Assembly: GCA_025362975.1 (NCBI GenBank)
Contig: JANYES010000022.1
Span: forward strand, 1 to 64,000
Length of the DNA stretch: 64,000 nucleotides
DNA from: Alphaproteobacteria bacterium
Lineage (GTDB): Bacteria; Pseudomonadota; Alphaproteobacteria; Rickettsiales; SXRF01
Direction of reading: 5' to 3'
The notes under the pieces were generated by a model. The model was not told the origin of the DNA. It saw nothing but the letters and a program-made list of their open reading frames with translations, and made no database searches. The position numbers and the translations under genes were made by a program. Positions 4,662-41,299 of this stretch are shown here, in pieces (position 1 is the first letter of the stretch; each line of letters begins with the position of its first letter).

Positions 4662-7435
4662 ACTTTTCTCCTTTTACGCTTGGATTCTGAAATAGCCACC
4701 AGCGGCGCGGTGAGACGTTGGTATTCCGAAAAGAGGTATTCGATGCGTTCGCGCTCAGAGGCGAAAGCAGCTTTGCGGTAAGCGGCGTCCACTGCTTTAT
4801 CGAGAGCTTGGTGAGCTTTTAGCAGTGCAGGCGACATGGTGAGCGGGTCATACAAATCCGCGAGGGTACTGTGGGGGAAGCCAGCGCGTGCATCCAACAC
4901 TGCCTGCGCCTTTTCCTCAATCGCTTTCACTTGTTCAGACTTTGGCGCGGATGGCCACGGAAAGTTGTTGTAAACAATTGATGCAGAATATTGATAATCA
5001 CTCTTCATACGCCCAGCAGTTTGACGCATCCACCCATTGTGCATTGAAGATGCCATTATTCCAAAATCATATAAACTGGCATTCGGAATGGCCAATGCAC
5101 TGCCACTGATAATTACATCTTTTGAACAAAATCCTATTGGTAAATAATGGCGTCTTTCTGAAGAAACTTTTGGTATTAGCAAATAATCACTGTCAGGTTG
5201 TCGGTTCTCTGAAAAAAGTGATGGATAGTTAGCCCACTGTTTCGTTCTTGCCTTATCACTGCTTAGTCTGACCTCTTTGACTTTATGAATGCGCTCTATA
5301 ACTAATGGCATTGCCCTAAGTTCCTCTGGTTTGGCACCGACAAGCCATAGGCAATATCTATCAATCGAATTTATAAATTCCTCACCCCCCATATACTTCC
5401 TGATCCATTTTTTAGCGAGTGGCTCACGAGACAATAAATCTTTGCATTCCGAAGCTGATAAAATCAGAAAGCCAAAATCAGTAGCTTCACTGCCCTTATT
5501 TATTTTGGGCACATTTGCAATCGGCTGACTGCGCTTTTCTATCAAACATACTGGCGCATCTATCAAGTAAGGATTGATGTTCTTTGCATTTACACGATGT
5601 GGATCAGAAATAATTGTTTCATACTCATACAAATATTTTTGCCCCATATCAGCAGCAGAAAAACCAATAATCACACAATGGACATTGGCAATCTTCATGC
5701 CTTTGGCTTTTTTCTCGTCAATCGTCCATTTGAAGGTGCGGTGAGCAAAATTGATGCAGATGCCATAGCGTGAAAGCATTGGTTGCCACAGCACAGCCAC
5801 TTGCTCGCCCTGCGTGATGGAATTGGTGGAGACAAACGCCACTTTAATATGCGTACCCTGAATGTACTCGGCGGCTTTCCAGTACCACGCGGTGACGTAA
5901 TCAAGCAGACCATCACCTTTTATGTTATGGAAAACCCTCCGCATATCTTCCTTTTGCGCTGGTATTTGCTCTTTCTTACCCACAAACGGCGGGTTGCCAA
6001 GCATGTAGCTGAGTTTATTTGGTGCAATGACGGTTTTCCAATCGGTGGTCAGCGCGTTGCCGTGGGTGATGTTCGCGGATTTCTTCAGTGGTAGGCGCGT
6101 GAGTGCTTGGCCGAAGGATTCCGAGAGCTTCATGTTCATCTGGTGGTCGGTCAGCCACATGGCAGCTTCGGCGATGTGCGCGGGGAATTCTTCAATTTCA
6201 ATGCCGTAAAACTGGTCAACATCCACTTTGGAAAGTGTTTTGACATCCAGCTCAAGCTGGCGTTTTGGGTAGAGTGCTTCCAGCACTTCCAGCTCCAGCA
6301 AACGCAGCTCGCGATATGCCAAAATCAAGAAGTTGCCGCAGCCGCAGGCGGGGTCAAAAAACGTGAGCGTGCCCAACTTCGCATGGAATTTTTCGAGCTG
6401 TGATTTGCGCTGTGTGGATTTGCTATCACGGATTTTCTCAAATTCCTCGCGCAGTTCATCCAAAAATAGCGGATGGATGGTTTTCAGAATATTGCGCTCG
6501 CTGGTGTAATGCGCTCCGCCTTTGCGCTGTTCCTGTGGCAGCATGACCATTTGGAACAACGAGCCGAACAGCGCGGGAGATACCTTGTTCCACTTAAAAT
6601 TGCAGCATTGTAACAGCGCCTGACGCATGGGCGCATCGAAGCTAGGCGTGCGTATCAGGCCAGCAAACAGCTTGCCATTCACATGCGGGAAGCGCGCCAA
6701 ATCCTCATCAAGTGTTTTCTGGCGCTTTTCCGGTGGCGTATCCAAAATCTCAAACAGATGGACGAGGTTCTGGCCTAAATCGCGGCCATCCTCAGCGGTT
6801 TTGTTCTCGACATATTGTAAAAAACTATCGGGTTCAAAAATCCCCGTGTCATCGGCAAATAGACAAAACATCAGGCGCACAAGCAGACGCTCCAAATCCA
6901 CGCCTGTATAGCCACTTTCCTCCAACCGCTCATGTAGATTGCCCATGAGCGTTGCGGCCTCGATATTCACTTCGGGCTGGTCTTTATATTGCTCCAAGTG
7001 GTAGCCAGCGATAAACCCGAAAATGCGAACTTTTTCCGGCAACTCGGATAGCCGGAAATGGTGCTCCTCGCGTGTTTCAAGGTCGATGACTTCAAACGTC
7101 TGAAAATCCGAGAGCAAGATATAGCGTGGTTTTTCCTGTTCTTTCAGGCTCAAAAAATAATCCGTTGCCTGAGTGCGAGCGCTCTCCAGACTCCGGCCAG
7201 CCGACTTTTGCTCGATTAATAATTGCCCCGGCCAGAATAGATCAATGAATCCTTGCGCGTTATTAAGCTTCTTGACTTTTTCCTCATAGATTGCCACGTC
7301 ACGCCGCCTGCGGCCAAACACCTCGAAAAATTCATTATAAAAGGTCTGGGTCTGCCCCTTTTCATAGTGGGCATCCTTCCATTCTTCCGCAAACCGCGCA
7401 GCACGGGCGCGTATCTCATTCCAGCTTAAGGGCAT
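4658..7435 (-). CDS. MmeI-like type IIL restriction-modification enzyme
   Basis: This 925-residue single-chain enzyme matches the MmeI family, which joins an endonuclease, an N6-adenine methyltransferase and a target recognition domain. The nuclease signature D-X9-E-X-K is intact at D65, E75 and K77 (IDLFWPGQLLIEQK). A helical spacer follows, then methyltransferase motif I DPACGCGNFL (about 361-370) and motif IV NPPF (about 481-484); the region after about 620 should hold target recognition. I chose the ATG at 7435 (MPLSWNEI, the usual family start) over upstream in-frame starts to 7480. It overlaps the next gene by ATGA. Family members cut one side of the site about 20 bp away and methylate one strand. 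The target site cannot be read from sequence. Confidence 0.92.
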   Translation of the reverse strand: MPLSWNEIRARAARFAEEWKDAHYEKGQTQTFYNEFFEVFGRRRRDVAIYEEKVKKLNNAQGFIDLFWPGQLLIEQKSAGRSLESARTQATDYFLSLKEQEKPRYILLSDFQTFEVIDLETREEHHFRLSELPEKVRIFGFIAGYHLEQYKDQPEVNIEAATLMGNLHERLEESGYTGVDLERLLVRLMFCLFADDTGIFEPDSFLQYVENKTAEDGRDLGQNLVHLFEILDTPPEKRQKTLDEDLARFPHVNGKLFAGLIRTPSFDAPMRQALLQCCNFKWNKVSPALFGSLFQMVMLPQEQRKGGAHYTSERNILKTIHPLFLDELREEFEKIRDSKSTQRKSQLEKFHAKLGTLTFFDPACGCGNFLILAYRELRLLELEVLEALYPKRQLELDVKTLSKVDVDQFYGIEIEEFPAHIAEAAMWLTDHQMNMKLSESFGQALTRLPLKKSANITHGNALTTDWKTVIAPNKLSYMLGNPPFVGKKEQIPAQKEDMRRVFHNIKGDGLLDYVTAWYWKAAEYIQGTHIKVAFVSTNSITQGEQVAVLWQPMLSRYGICINFAHRTFKWTIDEKKAKGMKIANVHCVIIGFSAADMGQKYLYEYETIISDPHRVNAKNINPYLIDAPVCLIEKRSQPIANVPKINKGSEATDFGFLILSASECKDLLSREPLAKKWIRKYMGGEEFINSIDRYCLWLVGAKPEELRAMPLVIERIHKVKEVRLSSDKARTKQWANYPSLFSENRQPDSDYLLIPKVSSERRHYLPIGFCSKDVIISGSALAIPNASLYDFGIMASSMHNGWMRQTAGRMKSDYQYSASIVYNNFPWPSAPKSEQVKAIEEKAQAVLDARAGFPHSTLADLYDPLTMSPALLKAHQALDKAVDAAYRKAAFASERERIEYLFSEYQRLTAPLVAISESKRKRRKV

Positions 7436-31824: not shown

Positions 31825-32958
31825 TCATGGGTGGCCCCCGAACAGGTAGCGGGCGATTTCGGAATGCTCTTTGCGCCAGATGACATTGTCGATGAAGTAG
31901 TGGTGGATGTTGATGAAGATGATGACGCAGGCGGTGATGGGCAGCACCAGTGAGTGCGCGGGATTGAGCGCGGCTTCAAGCGCTTCGGGGGCGAATTTGA
32001 AGGCGGCAGCTCCTAGGGCAACGGCGACGGCGGTGAAGGTCAGTAGCTGTTTGGCGCTTGCGTGGCCTGAGCGTTTTTCGCCGCGTTTGTAGGCGTAGAC
32101 GAACAGCAAATATTGCATGGAATGGAAGAACGGATAGACGACGATCCATAGCGGGTGGAGGGCGGCTGCGAAGAGGAAGGGGTACATGGACAGATAGCCG
32201 AGCGTGGCCGTGTAGGAGATGCGCTTTTTCTCCCACGTAACTGTGATGAGGGCGATGAAGAAAGACGTGATGAAGATTGTTTCGGAGGCCAGCTTGAGCG
32301 TGTGCGGGGCGTGGTAATGCATTGGCGCGTAGTCGATGTCCCAGAGGTTTTTAGCGATGGCTTTGGTGCCACTTAGATTGGCGAGGCAGTAGGTGAGCCA
32401 GACGGCATAGGCGTTGAGCAGCAGGAGGCGGCGCTGGAGCGGCGTGTAGAAGATGCGTTTGAGAGAGGACAGCATCATGAATACGCCGAAGGATTGCTTG
32501 GCGTAATGCCAGCCGACGAGAACGAGCATAGCGTTGATGGAGTAGCCGATCAGCGGGGCGTTCTGGGTGGCAAGCGCATAGATGAAATAGCCTAGCATGA
32601 AGAGCGGGGCGAGGATGCCGGCGATGAGGTAGCGGGCGTAGAGTCCGGGGTTTGTTTTGAAGCGGGCGAGCTTGGCCGGGTAGTGGCGGTAGAGAAGCTG
32701 GTAGGAGACGATGAAGTGTGGGTCGTTGACGAGAAAGGCGAGGAAGGTGGCGATGGCGAGTATCTGGGCGTGGCGTGCGTCATACTGCGGAGAATTCGGC
32801 AGGGCGATGAAAAACAGGGCAATGAACATCAAGACCGCGAGGCCGCCCACCATGAGGAAATCAGCGAGTGGGGAGATCAGGTAGGGATAGCCGCGCCAGT
32901 GGCGGCTGGTGAGAAAAGCTTTGAGGGGATGTGAACCGGCTTGCGGCTCAGATTCCAT
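31825..32958 (-). CDS. Polytopic membrane protein with His motifs
   Basis: A 377-residue protein with about ten hydrophobic helices. Conserved-looking polar motifs lie at helix ends: NDPHFIVSYQ, GWHYAKQSFG, HPLWIVVYPFFHSMQY and NIHHYFIDNVIWR. The histidines recall membrane metalloenzymes, but I cannot name a family. It overlaps the end of ilvH by 11 bp, so it is probably the last gene of the ilvB-ilvH transcript. Confidence 0.7.
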   Translation of the reverse strand: MESEPQAGSHPLKAFLTSRHWRGYPYLISPLADFLMVGGLAVLMFIALFFIALPNSPQYDARHAQILAIATFLAFLVNDPHFIVSYQLLYRHYPAKLARFKTNPGLYARYLIAGILAPLFMLGYFIYALATQNAPLIGYSINAMLVLVGWHYAKQSFGVFMMLSSLKRIFYTPLQRRLLLLNAYAVWLTYCLANLSGTKAIAKNLWDIDYAPMHYHAPHTLKLASETIFITSFFIALITVTWEKKRISYTATLGYLSMYPFLFAAALHPLWIVVYPFFHSMQYLLFVYAYKRGEKRSGHASAKQLLTFTAVAVALGAAAFKFAPEALEAALNPAHSLVLPITACVIIFINIHHYFIDNVIWRKEHSEIARYLFGGHP

Positions 32959-33502: not shown

Positions 33503-33576
33503 GCGTGGCCTGCGGAAGGTAGGGTGATGTGGGCTTGCCCCTTTGCCAACTCAATGAGCAGGGTCTGCGCGCTCAT
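33499..33576 (-). CDS. Tiny ORF between ilvB accessory gene and ilvH
   Basis: A 25-codon ORF (MSAQTLLIELAKGQAHITLP...) starts inside the end of the 33573 gene and stops inside the ilvH start codon region, both by 4-base overlap. It may be a real small protein or just a bridge that couples translation to ilvH. Confidence 0.4.
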   Translation of the reverse strand: MSAQTLLIELAKGQAHITLPSAGHA

Positions 33577-34019
33577 GAGCCGCTCCGTGTGCGGTTGCCG
33601 TTGGCTTGTTTGGCGGCGGCGGCTAGGTGTTCGTTCTGGCCGAGCTGGATGGTTTTGAGCATGGTGTAGAGGATTTCGGCGACGTCGCGCACTTCTTCGG
33701 CGCGTTTCATTTCGCCTTGGGCTTCGTAGCCGTCGGCGCTGAATTGTAAATCGGAGAGATGGGCGATGATGGTGCGGATTTTGGCTTCCGGCAGATGGGC
33801 GGCGTCGACGCTAGCGTTGGCGAATTTCTGCACGGCAGTTTGCTGGCTGGCGGGCAGGCCGAAGTACTTTTTCGCGTGGTCGTAGTAAGGCATCAAATCT
33901 TCGACGAGGGCGGCGGTGCCGATGAATTTGCGGCGCTTTTTTAGGATGTCTTCCGGCGAGCCTTTGAGCATACCCATCTCATGTGAGATGACCAGTTCGG
34001 GTGCGTGCGGTTCTTCCAT
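33573..34019 (-). CDS. Hypothetical protein between ilvB and ilvH
   Basis: A 148-residue helical protein, acidic then basic, with no membrane segment (GSPEDILKKRRKFIGTAALVEDLMPYYDHAKKYFG). I know no family. It follows ilvB by 14 bp, so it belongs to the ilv transcript, where normally nothing lies between the two subunit genes. Confidence 0.75.
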   Translation of the reverse strand: MEEPHAPELVISHEMGMLKGSPEDILKKRRKFIGTAALVEDLMPYYDHAKKYFGLPASQQTAVQKFANASVDAAHLPEAKIRTIIAHLSDLQFSADGYEAQGEMKRAEEVRDVAEILYTMLKTIQLGQNEHLAAAAKQANGNRTRSGS

Positions 34020-34033
34020 GCTGTCCTCCAGAA

Positions 34034-35833
34034 TTAGAGTAAATCTTTGGTCTTGATGTCCGGTCTTTTTTCATCGGGCCCGAGGACGAGTTCGTAGTGC
34101 GCAGCACCAGCTGGAATCATCGGGTAGACGTTTTCGTTCTGGTCGACGAGCATGTCGAGAAGGACGGGGCCGGGGGTGTCGATCATCTGCTTGATCACCT
34201 TGTTAACGTCGGCGACTTTATCGCAGCGCAGGCCCGTGATGCCGTAAGCTTCAGCGAGTTTGACGAAGTCGGGCAGCGCGTCCATGTAGGACTCGGAATA
34301 GCGCGAGCCGTGGAACATTTCCTGCCACTGGCGGACCATGCCCATGTAACGGTTGTTGAGGATCATGATTTTGACCGGCAGGCGGTACTGCACGATGGTG
34401 GAGAGTTCCTGGATGTTCATCATGATGGACGCCTCGCCGGTGACGCACAGGACGAGGCCGTTGGGGTTGGCGACTTGCGTGCCGACCGCAGCGGGGACGC
34501 CGTAGCCCATCGTACCTAGGCCGCCGGAGGTCATCCAGCGGTTGGGGTGGTCGAATTTGAGGAACTGCGCGGCCCACATCTGGTGCTGGCCTACATCGGT
34601 GGTGGCGTAGGTTTCGTGGTGTTTGGACAGTTCGTAGAGGCATTCGAGGGCGTATTGCGGCTTGATGATCTTGTCGTCTTGCTTGTAGGAAAAGCTTTTG
34701 CGGGCGCGCCATGTTTCGATCTTGGACCACCATTCGGTGAGGTCGAGTTTTTGGCTAACCTGTTTTTTCCAAAGTGCGAGCATCTGGTTGATGACGTCGC
34801 CGGCGTCGCCGACGATGGGGATGTTGACGCGCACGTTTTTGTTGATCGACGACGCGTCGATATCGACATGGATTTTTTTGGAGTTGACCGAGAACGCGTC
34901 GAGGCGGCCGGTGACGCGGTCATCGAAGCGGGCGCCGATATTGATCATGACGTCGCATTCGGCCATGCACATGTTGGCTTCAAGCGAGCCGTGCATGCCG
35001 AGCATGCCGACGAACTGCTTGTCGGTGCCGGGGAAGGCGCCGAGGCCCATCAGCGTATTGGTGCAGGGGAAGCCGGTCAAGTGCACGAGTTCGGTGAGTG
35101 CGTCGCAGGCGCCAGGGCCAGCGTTGATGACGCCGCCGCCGACGTAGAAGACCGGGCGTTTGGCGGTCATCATCAGTTCGACGGCTTTTTCGACGAGCGC
35201 GCTATCGGCGGGTTTGACATCAGGGTAGGATGGGCGGTCGACCTGGTTTTTGCCGGTGTACTGCGTCAGTTGGTTCATCAGATTTTTGGGGATGTCGATG
35301 ACCACGGGGCCGGGGCGTCCCGAACGGGCGATGTGGAACGCTTCGTGGATGATGGCGCCGATCTGGTCGGCGTCTTTGACGAGGTAGTTGTATTTGGTGC
35401 ACGATCGGGTGATGCCGGTGGTGTCGGCTTCCTGAAAGGCGTCGGAGCCGATGAGGTGAGTCGGTACCTGCCCGGTGATGCAGACGAGCGGGATAGAGTC
35501 GAGCAGCGCGTCGGTGAGGCCCGTGACGGCGTTGGTGGCGCCGGGGCCAGAGGTGACGAGCACGACGCCGACTTTGCCTGTGGAACGCGCATAGCCTTCG
35601 GCGGCGTGGGTGGCAGCCTGTTCGTGGCGCACGAGGATGTGGCGCAGCTGGTTTTGCTTGAACAGCGCATCGTAAACGGGCAGCACGGCACCGCCGGGAT
35701 AACCGAAAATAACGTCGACGTCTTCGGCGATGAGGGCTTTGACAATAACTTCGGCGCCGGTTGCTTCGTGCACCGCCGTCGTGGCTTCGCCGGGGGAGTT
35801 TGGAGGTAATTTTTGTTTAAGCATTGTTTTCAT
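34034..35833 (-). CDS. ilvB: Acetolactate synthase large subunit
   Basis: A 599-residue TPP enzyme of branched-chain amino acid synthesis. Seen in order: the N-terminal PYR domain ([17 protein letters not shown]), the FAD-binding middle domain ([14 protein letters not shown]), and the C-terminal PP domain with the TPP signature [13 protein letters not shown]...NNRYMGM. It starts the ilvB-unknown-tiny ORF-ilvH transcript. No leader peptide is visible upstream (35834-35946). Confidence 0.97.
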
Positions 35834-35946: not shown

Positions 35947-38748
35947 CTAGTGCCCGAGGCTGTGGCCCGAGTGCCCGTTCGAGCTGAGATGCACCTTCGG
36001 ATGGGCGCGATTGGAATTGGCCGGAGCGGGCACCCAGCCTTCGCGGGTGCGCTTTTGCAGGCGCTGCTCGCGGATGGCGGCCAGCGCCTCATCCTCGTTG
36101 TTCACGAAATGGATGCCGAGTTTTTTGAGCGACTCGGGGTCGTTGTGCTCGATGATTTCCTTGAGCTTCTGGTAGAAGCCGCGCTTCTGCGTCTCCATCG
36201 GCGAGTTGACGATGTAGATTTCCTTGTGCTTCATTTTTTCGGTAGCGTAGGGGTCGTCCATTTCGAGGTGGCGCTTTTTCAGCAGCGCGAGCAAGGAAAG
36301 TTCCTGCAACGTGCCGGTGCCGCCGGGCATGATGATGAAGGCGTCGGATTTGTCGATCATGTATTCCATGCGCTCGTAGATGTCGCGGCTTTTCTGGAAC
36401 TGGGTGACGTATTGCGAAGCATCGCCTTCGCCGGGCATGATGTGCACGGCATTAGCGGCCATGTGCTCAGCGCCTTCCTGACGGCGTGCGTAGGCGGCTG
36501 AGGTGATTTCACCCATGCTGGCGAGCATGCCGCCGCCGGAGACGATGCCGAAATCTTCGTCGATCAGCTTGTTGGTGGTGTCGCGGGCATGGGCCATGTT
36601 GGTGTCGTTTTTATTGGTGGCCGAGCAGAAAATAGCGACGTTGAAGTCTTTCTTGCCGTCGCGCCCGGTGCGGCGAAATGGTTTTTCCTGCGTGGCGTGC
36701 GGAGGAAGGACGAAGCTGCGGTATTCGAGGCGGTCGTGTTTCAGCTTTTCGACGGCCTCTTCGATGGTCTTGGTAACTTTGTAGAGGCTGTTGGGGTTTT
36801 CCTGCACGGTGCCGCTGTAATGGAAGTCCGACACCATGCTGATGAGGTAGTCGAAGGCGCCTTCGGGATTGACGAGGTAGAAGGGTTTTTTAAGCTTGTA
36901 TTTATCGTGCGTCTGCTCGGCGACGATAACCGAGGTGAACAGGTAGACGTTGCGCCAGAAATCGTCCTGCGCCGTGGCGGGGTCGAAGGCGAAGACGATG
37001 CCGTCGGAATGGGCGAGGGCGTTTTTCTGGATATCGTCGGGGCTTTCAAATTTCGATGGCAAAAGCCCGACTTCGAACCCTTGTGCGTCGGCTTTCTGCA
37101 CCAGTTTTTCGGCGGCGAGCTTGCCGGAATAGCTGTGGTCGTCGACAACGAGACCTGCGCGGAAATTGGCGGAATATTTGAATTCGAACGGCTTGCTTTT
37201 GTCGATGGGGATGCCAGCTTCTCGGGCGAGGCCGCGCATGGCGATGGCGCGCGGGCTATGCTCCAGATAAAACTCGTCGCCGAGCTGGGCTTCAGTTCGC
37301 TTCAAGCGTCCGGGAAGGTTTGGAATCAGGTAGTTATCGATTTCGACCGCGCCACTCACATTCGGAGAGGGCTGGGGCTTGAAGGTGACGGTGCCGTGCA
37401 CTTCGGAGCTGACGATCTGCATGTCGGTGGCGCCGTAGTCGTGCTGGACCAACGGGGCGATGCCGATCAAGGATTTTTTGACCACGCCGTAATCAGGCGA
37501 GCGGGTGTCGGCGAAGACCTGTTCGATTTTTTTCATGAAGCCCATGATGCCGTCAGAGCCGATGGTGGAGGGGCCGGTTTCCACGCCCGGGAACGGGGCG
37601 TCGGGGTCGAGCATGGAGTAGATTTTGCGGAAGACGGGATGGTTGACGATGCCGGGCTGCTTGAAGTGGAAGCCGGAATCCTCGGCGATGATGAACGCCT
37701 GAGCCTTGGTGATGCCGTTATGGGCGAGCGCTTCGGTGCGCTTGTCCTCGTCCATCGAGTGCCATGCCTTGAATGCGGCTTCGACTTTGACTTTGACGTT
37801 GCCTTCGTAGGTGCGCTTGTCTTCGACGGGGCCGACATAGGTGCCGACCAGCTCGTAGATCGGGCGGACGTCGACCTGAATGCCCTGGGCTTTGCAGATG
37901 GCGGCGATTTCGTCGTATTTCTTCTGGGTGCCGGTGGCGACGAAGAGGACGGAGCCGTCGGGGATGAACGGCTCGTTAGAAAGCTTGGTGACCGGGGTTT
38001 TGGTGGAGGCGAATTTCTTGGCCATCGTAAGCGTGGTGGCGCGATCTTCGGAGATGTGGATGCCATACTTGCCGCCGAGGACTTCGAGGTCGACATATTT
38101 GCGCTTTTCGTGCGGCTCGGCATCCTGATCGAAATCCATCAGTTTGATACCGCGCAGCATCTGGTCCCAGAAACCTTTGCCGTCGCCGTCGACGGGGTTT
38201 TCGATGATGAGCGGATGGTCGAGCATGTGGCCTTGAAGCTTTTGCTGGATCAGGTGCAGGATCTCGCGCATGGCGTTGATTTCGCCGGGGATGGCGATAG
38301 TTGTGTTTGCGGATTCGACCTGCGATTCGAGGTCGTTGCCGTGGAAATGCTTGAACAGCGTAGCGCGGTCGCCGGCGACGCGGGTGTTGGGGACTTCGTG
38401 GGCGGCGAGTTTGTCTTTGAGCTCTTCACGGTCGTCAATGTAGAGCGATGCCACGGGATTCTGGCCCAGCACGTAGTTCATGGCTGGCTGGCGGACATAG
38501 GCGCCGATATGCTCGGGCAGCATGCCCGAATCGATCATCGTCTGGATCTGTTGCTTGAGCCATTTATCGCCGTCGCCGTTACCGCCCATGATGGGGCGTT
38601 CGCCGTTTAATATCTGGCCGGTGCGCTCGAGGAAGTGGTGAGTGCGGTAGGTGGCTTTTTCGCCGAACGGGTCGATGGCAGTGTCAGAGACTTCGCCGAA
38701 GGCGGCGAGGCTGGGCTTTTGATTGGCATAAAATGGAATCTCTACCAT
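35947..38748 (-). CDS. Multidomain LOG-like / HAM1-like nucleotide enzyme
   Basis: I know no protein of this 933-residue layout. Residues about 265-510 look like a HAM1/RdgB nucleoside-triphosphate pyrophosphatase: FVATGTQKKYDEI, TYEGNVKVKVEAAF, AEDSGFHF and an end motif EHSPRAIAMR resembling SHRxxA. Residues 702-895 look like a LOG (lysine-decarboxylase-like) nucleotide phosphoribohydrolase, with VSGGGMLASMGEI and MPGGTGTLQE; the usual Arg-Lys before it is ERM. Residues about 100-200 (IAIPGEINAMREIL) and 530-670 (SDGIVFAFDPA) may be degenerate LOG-like domains. The C-terminal 35 residues are His/Ser-rich. It follows a deaminase gene by 11 bp. All domain calls are by eye. Confidence 0.75.
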   Translation of the reverse strand: MVEIPFYANQKPSLAAFGEVSDTAIDPFGEKATYRTHHFLERTGQILNGERPIMGGNGDGDKWLKQQIQTMIDSGMLPEHIGAYVRQPAMNYVLGQNPVASLYIDDREELKDKLAAHEVPNTRVAGDRATLFKHFHGNDLESQVESANTTIAIPGEINAMREILHLIQQKLQGHMLDHPLIIENPVDGDGKGFWDQMLRGIKLMDFDQDAEPHEKRKYVDLEVLGGKYGIHISEDRATTLTMAKKFASTKTPVTKLSNEPFIPDGSVLFVATGTQKKYDEIAAICKAQGIQVDVRPIYELVGTYVGPVEDKRTYEGNVKVKVEAAFKAWHSMDEDKRTEALAHNGITKAQAFIIAEDSGFHFKQPGIVNHPVFRKIYSMLDPDAPFPGVETGPSTIGSDGIMGFMKKIEQVFADTRSPDYGVVKKSLIGIAPLVQHDYGATDMQIVSSEVHGTVTFKPQPSPNVSGAVEIDNYLIPNLPGRLKRTEAQLGDEFYLEHSPRAIAMRGLAREAGIPIDKSKPFEFKYSANFRAGLVVDDHSYSGKLAAEKLVQKADAQGFEVGLLPSKFESPDDIQKNALAHSDGIVFAFDPATAQDDFWRNVYLFTSVIVAEQTHDKYKLKKPFYLVNPEGAFDYLISMVSDFHYSGTVQENPNSLYKVTKTIEEAVEKLKHDRLEYRSFVLPPHATQEKPFRRTGRDGKKDFNVAIFCSATNKNDTNMAHARDTTNKLIDEDFGIVSGGGMLASMGEITSAAYARRQEGAEHMAANAVHIMPGEGDASQYVTQFQKSRDIYERMEYMIDKSDAFIIMPGGTGTLQELSLLALLKKRHLEMDDPYATEKMKHKEIYIVNSPMETQKRGFYQKLKEIIEHNDPESLKKLGIHFVNNEDEALAAIREQRLQKRTREGWVPAPANSNRAHPKVHLSSNGHSGHSLGH

Positions 38749-38759
38749 AGCTTTATCTC

Positions 38760-40169
38760 CTACCGGGCCGTTCCCAGCTGTTGTTCACGTATGCGTTTTG
38801 GATTCGTATAGTTCGGGCCGAAGGCGGTGCGCACATTCAGGTGCGTGGCGATGGCTTCGATCTGTTGTTCGTTCAGGCTGCCGTCGTTGAGCGGGATGAC
38901 GGTGAGGACCGGGTTATCAGTGACGCCTAAATTTTTGATCAGGCGGTTCAGACCTGCGGGGTCGGGCATTTTGATTTCGTGGTCGAGGGAAGCGCCCATT
39001 TCGGCGAGCATTTTCTGGTCGTTGAAGTTCATCATGAAGACTTCCTCGATGCCGGTCTGGTTGTAGGCGTTGGTAAGCGCCACCGGGATTTCCGGAGGCT
39101 TGCTCGGCAGCCACAGATCGCCGTTGACCAGTACGCCGGGGAAGAATTCGCCGCGGCGGGTTTTGAGGATGATGGCGGTAATTTCGATGTTCTTTTTTTC
39201 GTCGAGCTTGTCGTGATGGCTGGCGTAGGCTTTTTTAATGAGTTGCAGTAGCGCCCGGTTGACGTTTTCTTCGGTGGGGTGGTCGTGCAGCGCGGGGATG
39301 GCGGTGCCGACACTTTCGTAAACCTGCTTGAGCTTCATGAATTCGGCGAGGGGGACAACGATGTTGTCGTCGATGCGCGAGGCGGTGGCGACGAGCTTGT
39401 CGAGATGGGTGACCAGCGGCTTTTCAGGGGTGGCGGGGGTGGTGGCGTAGTCATAGCCGACCTGCATGATTTTGCTGATGGCGGGGATGGCAGTTTCATA
39501 CTCCGGCATGGGGTACATGATAGCTGGGCTGATTTCCCAGGCAGTGTGGCCGCCGTTGCGCGGGGGCTGCTCGCCTTTGTGGGTGATGAGTTCGATCGAG
39601 CCGTCATTGGTGGGGAGCATGAAGAAAGTGGCGTTTTGCGTGTGGTGGCGCAAATTCTGGCGGCACTCGCCGCAGGGACAGCCGATATGGCCTTTTTCCT
39701 GCTCGGTGATGCCACCCTGCCCGTCTTTGTGGGCGATGCCGGACATGAGGTAGACAGCGCTGAACTGCACGTGTGCGTCCTGCGTCCAATGCTCCGCTTT
39801 GCGCAGCATGCCGGTTTCGGCGCAGCCGCGCCCGGCGAACTGCTCGACGATGTGCTGCATGTTGGGTACGTCGATGTAAAGATGGCCTTGCGCCGTGATA
39901 CCGGCGGAGGCGGCGTGGTAGCTGTTGCCGTCGGGGATGGTGAAGGGGCGGACATGGGCGAGGAGCTGGTTGACCACCTGAAGCTGTTCGTTGGCAGTGA
40001 GGTGGAGCTCGCCGATACTCATGCTTTGGTCGCTATTGCGCGTGGAAAACTGGATTTCGCCGTTGATCTCGGCCCAGCTTATCAAATTGCCGGACACGAA
40101 GACGCTGCCGCTTCCCTTGCGATTTTGAAATGCGCTATCAACCAGGCCATTGAGCATAGTATCAACCAT
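38760..40169 (-). CDS. Two-domain cytidine-deaminase-like protein
   Basis: This 469-residue protein has the zinc deaminase signature: CAE (C116, E118) and CPCGECRQ (C166, C169), the pattern of cytidine deaminases. Residues about 290-469 look like a second copy without zinc ligands (FFPGVLVNGDLWLP), as in two-domain Cdd proteins. It is far longer than the usual 130 or 290 residues. It is the first gene of an operon with the LOG/HAM1-like protein, so the two should act on the same nucleotide pool. The actual substrate (cytidine, dCMP, dCTP or a modified base) is not known. Confidence 0.8.
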   Translation of the reverse strand: MVDTMLNGLVDSAFQNRKGSGSVFVSGNLISWAEINGEIQFSTRNSDQSMSIGELHLTANEQLQVVNQLLAHVRPFTIPDGNSYHAASAGITAQGHLYIDVPNMQHIVEQFAGRGCAETGMLRKAEHWTQDAHVQFSAVYLMSGIAHKDGQGGITEQEKGHIGCPCGECRQNLRHHTQNATFFMLPTNDGSIELITHKGEQPPRNGGHTAWEISPAIMYPMPEYETAIPAISKIMQVGYDYATTPATPEKPLVTHLDKLVATASRIDDNIVVPLAEFMKLKQVYESVGTAIPALHDHPTEENVNRALLQLIKKAYASHHDKLDEKKNIEITAIILKTRRGEFFPGVLVNGDLWLPSKPPEIPVALTNAYNQTGIEEVFMMNFNDQKMLAEMGASLDHEIKMPDPAGLNRLIKNLGVTDNPVLTVIPLNDGSLNEQQIEAIATHLNVRTAFGPNYTNPKRIREQQLGTAR

Positions 40170-40366: not shown

Positions 40367-41299
40367 CTAGAGCGGCAGAGTTTTGCTGTCGTAATGGACG
40401 GGCGTGGCGCGCGGCAACTGGTGCTTGAACCAGGTGAGCTGGCGCTTGGCGTAGTTGCGGGTGGCTTGGCAAGCGTTGGCCGTAGCTTCTTCGAGGGTCA
40501 GTTCGTGCTTCAGATAGGCGCTGATTTCCTTGATGCCGACGGATTTCATGGAAGGGGCGTCTTGGGGGATACCTAGGGTCTGCAGTAGCTGGACTTCTTC
40601 GATAGCCCCCTGCCCCAGCATCAGTTCAAAGCGCATGTCGCAACGTTTGTAAAGCGCATCGCGGGGGATATCAATTTGAAACAGCTTGAATTTTTCCGGT
40701 GCGTAGGGCGGCGTGGTGCCTTGCTCCTGCCACCAGCTGAGCGTGCGCCCGCTGCCGAGCCAGACTTCATAGGCGCGGATAAGGCGCTGGCGGTCATAGA
40801 CAGCGAGGCGGGCGAAGAAGCCGGGGTCGATTTCGCGCAGGCGGTCGGCGAAGGCGGCCTTGCCCATGACCGCGAAATCGTTGACGGCTTGGACGCGCAC
40901 TTCCGGGGCAATGTCGGGGATGTCGGCAATGCCTTGAAGCAGGGCTTTGAGGTAGAGGCCCGTGCCGCCGACGACGATGGGCTGGACGGCGTTGGAGAGC
41001 GCCCAGTCGATTTCCATCTTGGCCATGCGCAGCCATTTGCCGGCGGAAAAGCTTTCAAGGGCCGAGAGAAAACCATAAAGCTTGTGTGGGGCGAGCGCCT
41101 CTTCGGCCTCGGTTGGGCGGGCGGTCAGGATGCGTAGTTCTTTGTAGACCTGCTGGCTGTCGGCATTGATGATGACACAATTTATGTTTTTTTTGGCAGT
41201 CTTTTGCGCTAAGGAAAGCGCCAAGCCCGATTTGCCGCTGGCCGTCGGGCCGCCGATAACAATGATGTCAGGAACTTGAATGGATATTAAGGTGGGCAT
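40367..41299 (-). CDS. miaA: tRNA dimethylallyltransferase MiaA
   Basis: A 310-residue MiaA that adds a dimethylallyl group to A37 of tRNAs reading UNN codons. It has the P-loop GGPTASGKS, INADSQQVYKEL, and GGTGLYLKALLQG. The ATG at 41299 overlaps the ATG of divergent serB in the same CATG, so each gene's promoter must lie within the other gene. Confidence 0.96.
   Translation of the reverse strand: MPTLISIQVPDIIVIGGPTASGKSGLALSLAQKTAKKNINCVIINADSQQVYKELRILTARPTEAEEALAPHKLYGFLSALESFSAGKWLRMAKMEIDWALSNAVQPIVVGGTGLYLKALLQGIADIPDIAPEVRVQAVNDFAVMGKAAFADRLREIDPGFFARLAVYDRQRLIRAYEVWLGSGRTLSWWQEQGTTPPYAPEKFKLFQIDIPRDALYKRCDMRFELMLGQGAIEEVQLLQTLGIPQDAPSMKSVGIKEISAYLKHELTLEEATANACQATRNYAKRQLTWFKHQLPRATPVHYDSKTLPL

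Follow-up and report, generated by a model that had tools for sequence, protein, structure and literature searches.

A gene pair for a cytidine-deaminase-like protein and a HAM1/LOG fusion protein in an uncultured alphaproteobacterium: a candidate nucleotide-dismantling module

Results

Architecture of the gene pair

An uncultured alphaproteobacterium carries, within the 64,000-nucleotide stretch of DNA analyzed here (the window), a pair of genes encoding a cytidine-deaminase-like protein and a protein in which HAM1 and LOG domains are fused. The two open reading frames lie on the minus strand and both start with ATG; as stated in a preliminary description of the sequence, they code for 469 and 933 residues with 11 bp between them. 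The features of the locus are listed below with the evidence for each.

38760..40169, minus strand: gene 1, first of the pair, two-domain cytidine-deaminase-like protein of 469 residues (open reading frame; 2d30 profile match; PF00383 in relatives)
39465..40052, minus strand: deaminase N-terminal domain, about residues 40–235, predicted to be catalytic, zinc motifs intact (alignment A8, motif table)
39816..39824, minus strand: zinc/catalytic motif C116-A117-E118 (no variation at A117 and E118 among 15 relatives)
39663..39674, minus strand: zinc motif C166-G167-E168-C169, PCGxC (no variation at C166, G167 and C169 among 15 relatives)
38766..39302, minus strand: deaminase C-terminal domain, about residues 290–468, zinc-less copy of the N-terminal domain (hhalign between the halves)
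35947..38748, minus strand: gene 2, LOG1-HAM1-LOG2-LOG3 fusion of 933 residues, 11 bp after gene 1 (open reading frame, Pfam, AlphaFold model)
37963..38631, minus strand: degenerate LOG domain 1, about residues 40–262 (hhalign to LOG3, alignments)
37201..37953, minus strand: HAM1/ITPase-fold domain, residues 266–516 (fold matches, conservation, hhalign to ordinary RdgB)
36655..37176, minus strand: degenerate LOG domain 2, residues 525–698 (hhalign to LOG3; conservation in alignments A6 and A7)
36034..36651, minus strand: intact LOG domain 3, residues 700–905 (fold match to 3qua, Pfam Lysine_decarbox)
36301..36327, minus strand: LOG3 motif PGGTGTLQE, residues 808–816, with the predicted catalytic pair R793/E816 (conservation, equivalence to CgLOG)
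40367..41299, minus strand: miaA, upstream neighbor, its place kept in relatives L020, L028 and L194 (open reading frames, neighborhoods)
34034..35833, minus strand: ilvB, downstream neighbor, its place kept in relatives L020, L024 and L028 (open reading frames, neighborhoods)

The deaminase and fusion genes are presumably co-transcribed. A scan for promoters and terminators gave nothing clearly above chance; the best match precedes ilvB, and none precedes the deaminase gene.

The deaminase-like protein

The 469-residue protein contains the cytidine deaminase zinc motifs CAE and PCxxC that had been read from its sequence, as C116-A117-E118 and C166-G167-x-C169, and A117, E118, C166, G167 and C169 are invariant across 15 relatives (alignment A8). 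The protein itself falls below every curated Pfam and NCBIfam cut-off and has no Pfam match; its score against the NCBIfam model cyt_deam_tetra is 18.6 bits, where 113.65 are needed. It is assigned to the cytidine deaminases because PF00383 is detected in 8 of the 15 relatives and because its profile matches the solved cytidine deaminase 2d30 with an E-value of 7e-4. Family membership of this kind suggests that the protein would deaminate a pyrimidine.

The C-terminal half is recognizable as a second, zinc-less copy of the N-terminal half, with a profile-profile probability of 95.7% (hhalign). The cytidine deaminase of E. coli likewise consists of a catalytic domain and a zinc-less domain, and the CAE/PCGxC zinc site is common to the window protein, 2d30 and the E. 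coli-type two-domain enzyme. In contrast to the latter, which has about 294 residues, the window protein has 469 and is strongly diverged. An AlphaFold model made from the single sequence has a pLDDT of 37.

The HAM1 domain of the fusion protein

The AlphaFold model of the 933-residue fusion has a pLDDT of 84 and a pTM of 0.86. The HAM1/RdgB-like region proposed earlier is recognized by Pfam as Ham1p_like at residues 268–363 (25.8 bits, cut-off 22.5), and in the model residues 265–514 adopt the HAM1 fold, with Z scores of 18.4 to TM0159 (1vp2) and 17.0 to E. coli RdgB (2q16). Aligned with ordinary RdgB, the domain reaches an hhalign probability of 97.5%.

With the non-canonical purine NTP pyrophosphatases of the HAM1/RdgB family (PF01725) the domain shares the fold (Z 17–18) and the phosphate- and metal-binding Lys, Glu, Lys and Asp: among 28 fusions, E309, K321 and D357 are invariant and K277 is conserved in at least 90%. 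It differs from them by insertions, by the attached LOG domains and at two motifs. The SHR base-recognition motif of RdgB-type enzymes is SPR, so that the base-contacting His is replaced by Pro, and TGNxxK has lost its Asn (TGTQKK in the window protein). These changes weaken the claim to ordinary ITPase specificity and leave the claim to a HAM1 fold unaffected. Every fusion-carrying genome tested also has a separate, ordinary RdgB, which argues that the HAM1 domain of the fusion is specialized and is not the basic ITPase of the cell.

The three LOG domains

The C-terminal LOG domain, LOG3, is detected by Pfam (Lysine_decarbox/LOG) at residues 745–868 with an E-value of 2e-20, and in the AlphaFold model residues 699–897 match 3qua with a Z score of 24.8 and AMP-bound 3sbx with 24.1. 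The two stretches that had been described as worn-out LOG domains also proved related to the intact one, with profile-profile probabilities of 98.5% (residues 40–262, LOG1) and 97.7% (residues 525–698, LOG2). LOG1 lacks the catalytic Arg, its PGG loop has shrunk to PGE, and it is missing in shorter homologues. LOG2 has lost PGGxGT and the catalytic Arg and retains the helix residues S606, V609 and Q612 (alignments A6 and A7).

In LOG3, R793, G812, T813 and E816 are invariant in the 28 fusions, and R793 and E816 are the equivalents of Arg99 and Glu122 of CgLOG (PMC4979012). The domain thus has in common with the LOG phosphoribohydrolases (PF03641, TIGR00730; CgLOG and MtLOG) the fold, the PGGxGTxxE motif and the catalytic Arg/Glu pair. 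In contrast, the adenine/prenyl pocket of CgLOG (Met96, His97, Lys100, Glu121) is replaced by I790, Y791, M794 and Q815, the partner subunit is fused and degenerate, and the fusion scores 60.4 bits against the NCBIfam LOG equivalog, whose cut-off is 300. Cytokinin production was set aside on the basis of these pocket differences. Given the altered base-recognition positions in both HAM1 and LOG3, either domain could have turned into a binding domain.

A degenerate LOG followed by an intact one, as in LOG2-LOG3, also occurs in tandem-LOG proteins of Verrucomicrobiota, which have about 350 residues. These share RM..M and GGxGTxQE with the fusion and are 25–34% identical to it over about residues 586–866, but they have neither a HAM1 domain nor LOG1. 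We know of no function for them.

Distribution and genomic setting

The fusion forms a family of its own, found in 25 of the 263 genomes of the order and in a few other alphaproteobacterial families; the Pseudomonadota sample contained it in no further lineage. Homologues of the two genes do occur together in distant genomes, as the proposed partnership implies. The order deaminase, then fusion is seen in five genomes from three GTDB families (G000, G002 and G011 in f1, G059 in f5, G022 in f8). After the pair in G022 comes a gene of the adenosine deaminase family, and opposite lies an operon of a second deaminase and a tandem-LOG protein. The pairing is not obligatory, since 18 of the 25 fusion genomes have no such deaminase and 14 of the 21 deaminase genomes have no fusion; the two co-occur with P = 0.0014 when the kinship of the genomes is ignored. 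In the trees, different deaminase clades adjoin different fusion clades, which indicates that the partnership has been re-established repeatedly.

The fusion loci lie on stable chromosome, between miaA and ilvB, at radA, or between argC and ftsH. The GC3 of the pair is 0.77–0.79 and that of the flanking genes 0.71–0.79; a horizontal origin was rejected on this composition. Among plasmids and phages, neither fusion nor deaminase has relatives, except for one weak match to the LOG domain, in Nocardia, and the window deaminase, used as a single query, has no relative among viral contigs. PADLOC has no match for the window proteins or the deaminase family. The only PHROGs matches are a DprA-like one to the Rossmann domain of LOG3 and a marginal one of unknown function, and they are taken as superfamily resemblance. 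The earlier leaning toward a housekeeping role agrees with the stable loci, the composition shared with the flanks and the lack of mobile relatives beyond that one LOG-domain match.

Discussion

The domains, the folds and the conserved catalytic residues, together with the gene order and the stable chromosomal setting, support a reading of the operon as a dedicated nucleotide-dismantling module, in which HAM1 and LOG act in series and the deaminase conditions or finishes the substrate. We give this reading an even chance. The HAM1 domain would convert a particular NTP, probably a non-canonical or damaged one, to NMP and PPi. LOG3 would then cut the N-glycosidic bond of that NMP to leave a free base and ribose (or deoxyribose) 5-phosphate, and a nucleotide cleaved in this way could not be re-phosphorylated. 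LOG2 is most likely a built-in dimer partner that completes the base pocket of LOG3, because in solved LOGs the neighboring subunit supplies residues of that pocket. LOG1 probably represents another copy with a structural or ligand-binding role. The deaminase may act on the same substrate stream, turning a cytosine-type nucleoside or nucleotide into a uracil-type form that the fusion handles; alternatively, it may deaminate the base that the fusion releases. From the features named above we infer the order of the reactions, the part played by LOG2 and a purpose in cleaning the nucleotide pool, rather than in salvage, signaling or synthesis.

Yeast provides the closest functional parallel. There, HAM1 and LOG1 each protect against 6-N-hydroxylaminopurine and against 5-FU, each depending in part on the other, and Log1p was proposed to act downstream of Ham1p in the degradation of non-canonical nucleotides (PMC5940212). 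The fusion contains the same two enzyme types in the same proposed order, but the yeast proteins are encoded by separate genes and have no deaminase partner, whereas here both belong to a single polypeptide that carries two further LOG copies, both degenerate. In 8-azaguanine biosynthesis, the LOG-like 8-azaGMP nucleosidase PtnC, which has the same Arg/Glu pair, shares an operon with the pyrophosphatase-domain protein PtnD (PMC7109123); there, in a Streptomyces antibiotic pathway, the two are separate proteins and PtnD has an acetyltransferase domain. The pool sanitizer DNPH1 also works at the level of the monophosphate, releasing a non-canonical base from hmdUMP (PMC10603095), although it belongs to another N-glycosidase family and is neither accompanied by nor fused to HAM1. 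In agreement with the preliminary description, no protein joining HAM1 and LOG was found in the literature searched, which covers few of the subscription journals.

The same activities would degrade normal nucleotides as well, and the pair might serve general salvage or catabolism of ordinary pyrimidine and purine nucleotides, from RNA turnover or scavenged food, instead of removing non-canonical ones. The two kinds of deaminase in the G022 cluster fit such a role. However, a triphosphate pyrophosphatase step would be wasteful, HAM1 enzymes as a family, to our knowledge, reject canonical NTPs, and ordinary LOG genes are also present, so that we regard salvage as rather unlikely. Biosynthesis of a specialized free base, with a modified base as the product (a signal, hormone or antimetabolite), has precedents in LOG-type enzymes that close the 8-azaguanine (PtnC, PMC7109123) and cytokinin pathways. 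This has a slim probability, as no base-modifying enzyme or exporter lies beside the pair, whose neighbors are miaA, ilvB, radA, argC and ftsH, and the residues corresponding to the cytokinin pocket Lys100/Glu121 are replaced.

Kongming (KomABC) offers a model for immunity or stress signaling. In that system KomA converts dAMP to dITP, which by way of KomB activates the NADase KomC (PMC12774641, PMC12948488). By analogy, the two chromosomal genes here could comprise a deaminase that makes a deaminated nucleotide messenger, a HAM1 domain that senses it without destroying it, and a LOG effector that destroys nucleotides. As in KomABC, a deaminase and a HAM1 protein are encoded together, the KomBC structures 9xvc and 8zsg are among the fold matches of the HAM1 domain, and the G022 locus combines a deaminase, the HAM1 fusion and an adenosine-deaminase-family gene. 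Against this, Pfam detects neither SIR2 nor any other NADase domain in the two proteins, the flanking genes are miaA and ilvB, the deaminase is of the cytidine type and not KomA, and the phosphate- and metal-binding residues of HAM1 are intact. In the fold comparison the domain is 22% identical to KomB, no closer than to ordinary HAM1. The absence of PADLOC matches and, but for the one weak LOG-domain match, of plasmid or phage relatives, together with housekeeping loci that have been stable since ancient times across several families, makes signaling of this kind quite unlikely.

In some systems SLOG domains serve as sensors. The fusion could accordingly be a regulator, in which HAM1 and the degenerate LOGs sense ligands and control LOG3 allosterically and no pyrophosphatase step takes place; the degeneration of two of the three LOG copies and the replacement of the base-contacting His by Pro would fit. 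However, K277, E309, K321 and D357 are kept in nearly all relatives while the base-pocket positions vary, as expected of an enzyme whose specificity has changed, and we consider a purely regulatory fusion improbable.

LOG proteins are named for the production of plant cytokinins, yet most bacteria possess a LOG and do not produce cytokinins for plants. From yeast genetics came the suggestion that the original job of LOG is to finish the destruction of rogue nucleotides begun by HAM1, and a natural HAM1-LOG fusion is evidence of the "Rosetta-stone" type for that proposal. As a single polypeptide, it also allows direct tests of the two-step reaction, of channeling and of which substrate a conserved LOG subgroup uses. 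With a deaminase as recurring partner, the route of disposal may have three steps. Both proteins appear to have captured an oligomeric partner and worn it down, LOG2 next to LOG3 in the fusion and the zinc-less half in the deaminase.

Organization of the deaminase and fusion genes

The two genes lie head-to-tail in the window, flanked by miaA and ilvB:

38760-40169, minus strand: ORF of the deaminase, 469 residues
35947-38748, minus strand: ORF of the LOG/HAM1 fusion, 933 residues, 11 bp after the deaminase ORF

The GC3 of the pair is 0.77-0.79, and its composition is like that of the flanking genes. Pfam identifies a LOG domain (Lysine_decarbox, E 2e-20) and a Ham1p_like domain (25.8 bits, above the cut-off) in the fusion. 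The window's deaminase matches no Pfam domain and gives a weak cytidine-deaminase match in NCBIfam.

Structure of the fusion protein

The AlphaFold model of the fusion was built on 34 sequences, taken from the window and from loci of the genome-contig scan, and has a confident pTM of 0.86 and mean pLDDT of 84. When the model is compared with solved structures, residues 265-514 resemble HAM1/ITPase enzymes (Z 18.4 for TM0159 and 17.0 for E. coli RdgB), and residues 699-897 resemble LOG enzymes (Z 24.8 for 3qua and 24.1 for AMP-bound 3sbx). Together with Pfam, these matches bear out the HAM1 region and C-terminal LOG domain of the preliminary description. Its two worn-out LOG stretches are also recovered: by profile-profile comparison, residues 40-262 and 525-698 match the intact LOG domain with probabilities of 98.5% and 97.7%, and the HAM1 region matches ordinary RdgB with 97.5%. 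The architecture is LOG1-HAM1-LOG2-LOG3, where LOG1 and LOG2 are degenerate. Literature searches of incomplete coverage returned no report of a HAM1-LOG fusion.

Among 28 fusion proteins, E309, K321 and D357 of the HAM1 domain and R793, G812, T813 and E816 of LOG3 are invariant, and K277, G809 and G810 reach 90% conservation or more. In the alignment to ordinary RdgB, K277, E309, K321 and D357 fall at its phosphate- and metal-binding positions. R793 and E816 of LOG3 align with Arg99 and Glu122, the catalytic residues of CgLOG (PMC4979012). At base-contact positions, the HAM1 domain has SPR where RdgB has SHR, and LOG3 has Met794 and Gln815 at Lys100 and Glu121 of the CgLOG adenine pocket. Because the catalytic residues are kept and the base-contact positions are changed, both domains look active, with a specificity unlike that for ITP or cytokinin nucleotides.

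In CgLOG, Glu125 and Trp129 of the prenyl/base pocket are supplied by the neighbouring subunit (PMC4979012). These residues fall at S606 and A610 of LOG2 in the alignment, on a helix where V609 and Q612 are invariant and S606 is at least 90% conserved (34 sequences). From this correspondence we infer that LOG2 is probably a captured dimer partner of LOG3.

Properties of the deaminase

The zinc motifs and zinc-less second copy previously noted in the deaminase are upheld by its family. All 15 relatives compared share residues A117, E118, C166, G167 and C169. The two halves of the protein are homologous (95.7%), and the C-terminal one lacks the zinc site. E. coli cytidine deaminase likewise has a zinc-bearing and a zinc-less half. 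The family profile matches the solved cytidine deaminase 2d30 (E 7e-4), and PF00383 is matched by 8 of 15 family members. A single-sequence model of the deaminase gave no usable structure. In two other deaminases (L196:2096-3796 and L200:5017-6510), the first zinc cysteine is an aspartate (FDAE, not CAE), and the E and PCGxC are retained.

Distribution and chromosomal setting

By tallies from match tables, the fusion is present in 25 of the 263 genomes of the host's order, spread over seven GTDB families, and the two-domain deaminase in 21. Outside the order, a class sample of 385 genomes contains the long fusion only in G394, G397 and G567, and a split HAM1-LOG case in G294; a phylum sample of 398 genomes contains none. 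The C-terminal half of the fusion is related to a 350-residue tandem-LOG family common in Verrucomicrobiota. A separate ordinary RdgB is present in all 10 genomes tested, and ordinary 180-residue LOGs are widespread.

The fusion is flanked by miaA and ilvB in G002 and G009, precedes ilvB in G007 and lies behind miaA in G006 and G010. In a further set of genomes, whose neighbouring genes were named by sequence recognition, it adjoins radA in four genomes of three families (G081, G097, G080 and G056), is flanked by argC and ftsH in G059, and separates atpG from atpD in G036. The fusion loci are stable chromosomal loci, as was proposed for the setting between ilvB and miaA, and housekeeping neighbours recur across relatives. 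Searches for relatives of the pair found none in phages and a single distant LOG-domain hit in plasmids, and PADLOC returned no match for the pair.

Further observations concern nearby or related genes. A 148-residue ORF without a significant Pfam match (33573-34019) lies between ilvB and the gene for the small acetolactate synthase subunit, with ORFs of 136-168 residues at the equivalent place in L020, L024 and L028; the ilv cluster also encodes a 377-residue, apparently polytopic membrane protein without a Pfam match (31825-32958). Two near-adjacent ordinary LOG paralogues of 181-186 residues lie elsewhere in the host genome (L038:4885-5445 and 6215-6760, contig C20). A LOG-type relative in G005 (L031:259-1286) is split into two ORFs, apparently a decaying gene or a misassembly.

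Association of the two genes

The two-gene arrangement of the preliminary description recurs, with the deaminase followed on the same strand by an adjacent fusion in five genomes of three GTDB families: G000 (the window's genome), G002 and G011 (f1), G059 (f5) and G022 (f8). The spacing is a 7-8 bp gap in G059 and a 4 bp overlap in G022. Both genes are found in 7 genomes, versus 2.0 expected (hypergeometric P 0.0014, a value that ignores relatedness), and in 5 of the 7 they are adjacent.

In the trees, G000 and G002 have deaminases from one group but fusions from different clades. The window's fusion is sister to that of G059, from another family, with 53% identity versus 20% to that of same-genus G002. 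G059 and G011 likewise share a deaminase group but not a fusion group; some branches are long, which makes fine placement unsure. Different clades have been paired repeatedly, and this speaks for a functional link more strongly than simple inheritance would.

In G022, an adenosine-deaminase-family gene (PF00962, E 1e-17) comes after the pair, and a second operon, of a deaminase and a tandem LOG, runs divergently from it:

L167:1434-9063, divergent operons: deaminase (498 residues, PF00383)-tandem LOG; deaminase-HAM1-LOG-LOG-adenosine deaminase

Judged from its sequence, this locus is a cluster of predicted nucleotide-cleaving enzymes.

Proposed activity of the pair

The simplest reading is that the pair would act as a serial nucleotide destroyer. 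The HAM1 domain would convert an NTP to NMP and PPi, LOG3 would cleave the NMP to base and (deoxy)ribose 5-phosphate, and the deaminase would feed or finish the nucleotide stream of the fusion. From overexpression and knock-out in yeast, Carlsson et al. proposed that non-canonical nucleotides are handled first by Ham1p and then, downstream, by Log1p (PMC5940212). The LOG-like PtnC is the enzyme that cleaves 8-azaGMP in 8-azaguanine synthesis, and it shares its operon with a gene for a pyrophosphatase-domain protein (PMC7109123). DNPH1, a human pool sanitiser, works at the NMP level (PMC10603095).

In Kongming, which is built around dITP (PMC12774641, PMC12948488), a deaminase and a HAM1 protein are also found, together with a SIR2 NADase. 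The component parts are truly alike, but no SIR2 is present in the deaminase-fusion pair. The KomBC structures, KomB being the HAM1 protein and KomC the SIR2 NADase, are among the HAM1-fold matches of the fusion. The HAM1 domain of the fusion resembles KomB no more closely than it does ordinary HAM1, and both genes occupy stable housekeeping loci, which makes it improbable that the deaminase and fusion are an analogue of this dITP-type immune system. Salvage or base biosynthesis by the pair and a sensor role of the fusion are also less favoured than serial nucleotide destruction.

Deaminases adjacent to mutS

In five genomes of family f29 (G070, G090, G106, G113 and G152; loci L196, L199, L200, L202 and L203), the two-domain deaminase lies directly behind mutS on the same strand, with the neighbour confirmed by Pfam in 3 of 5. 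In G056, a 357-residue tandem-LOG gene follows mutS (L178:2389-6213), the position of the deaminase in f29, hinting that the two genes may stand in for each other behind mutS.
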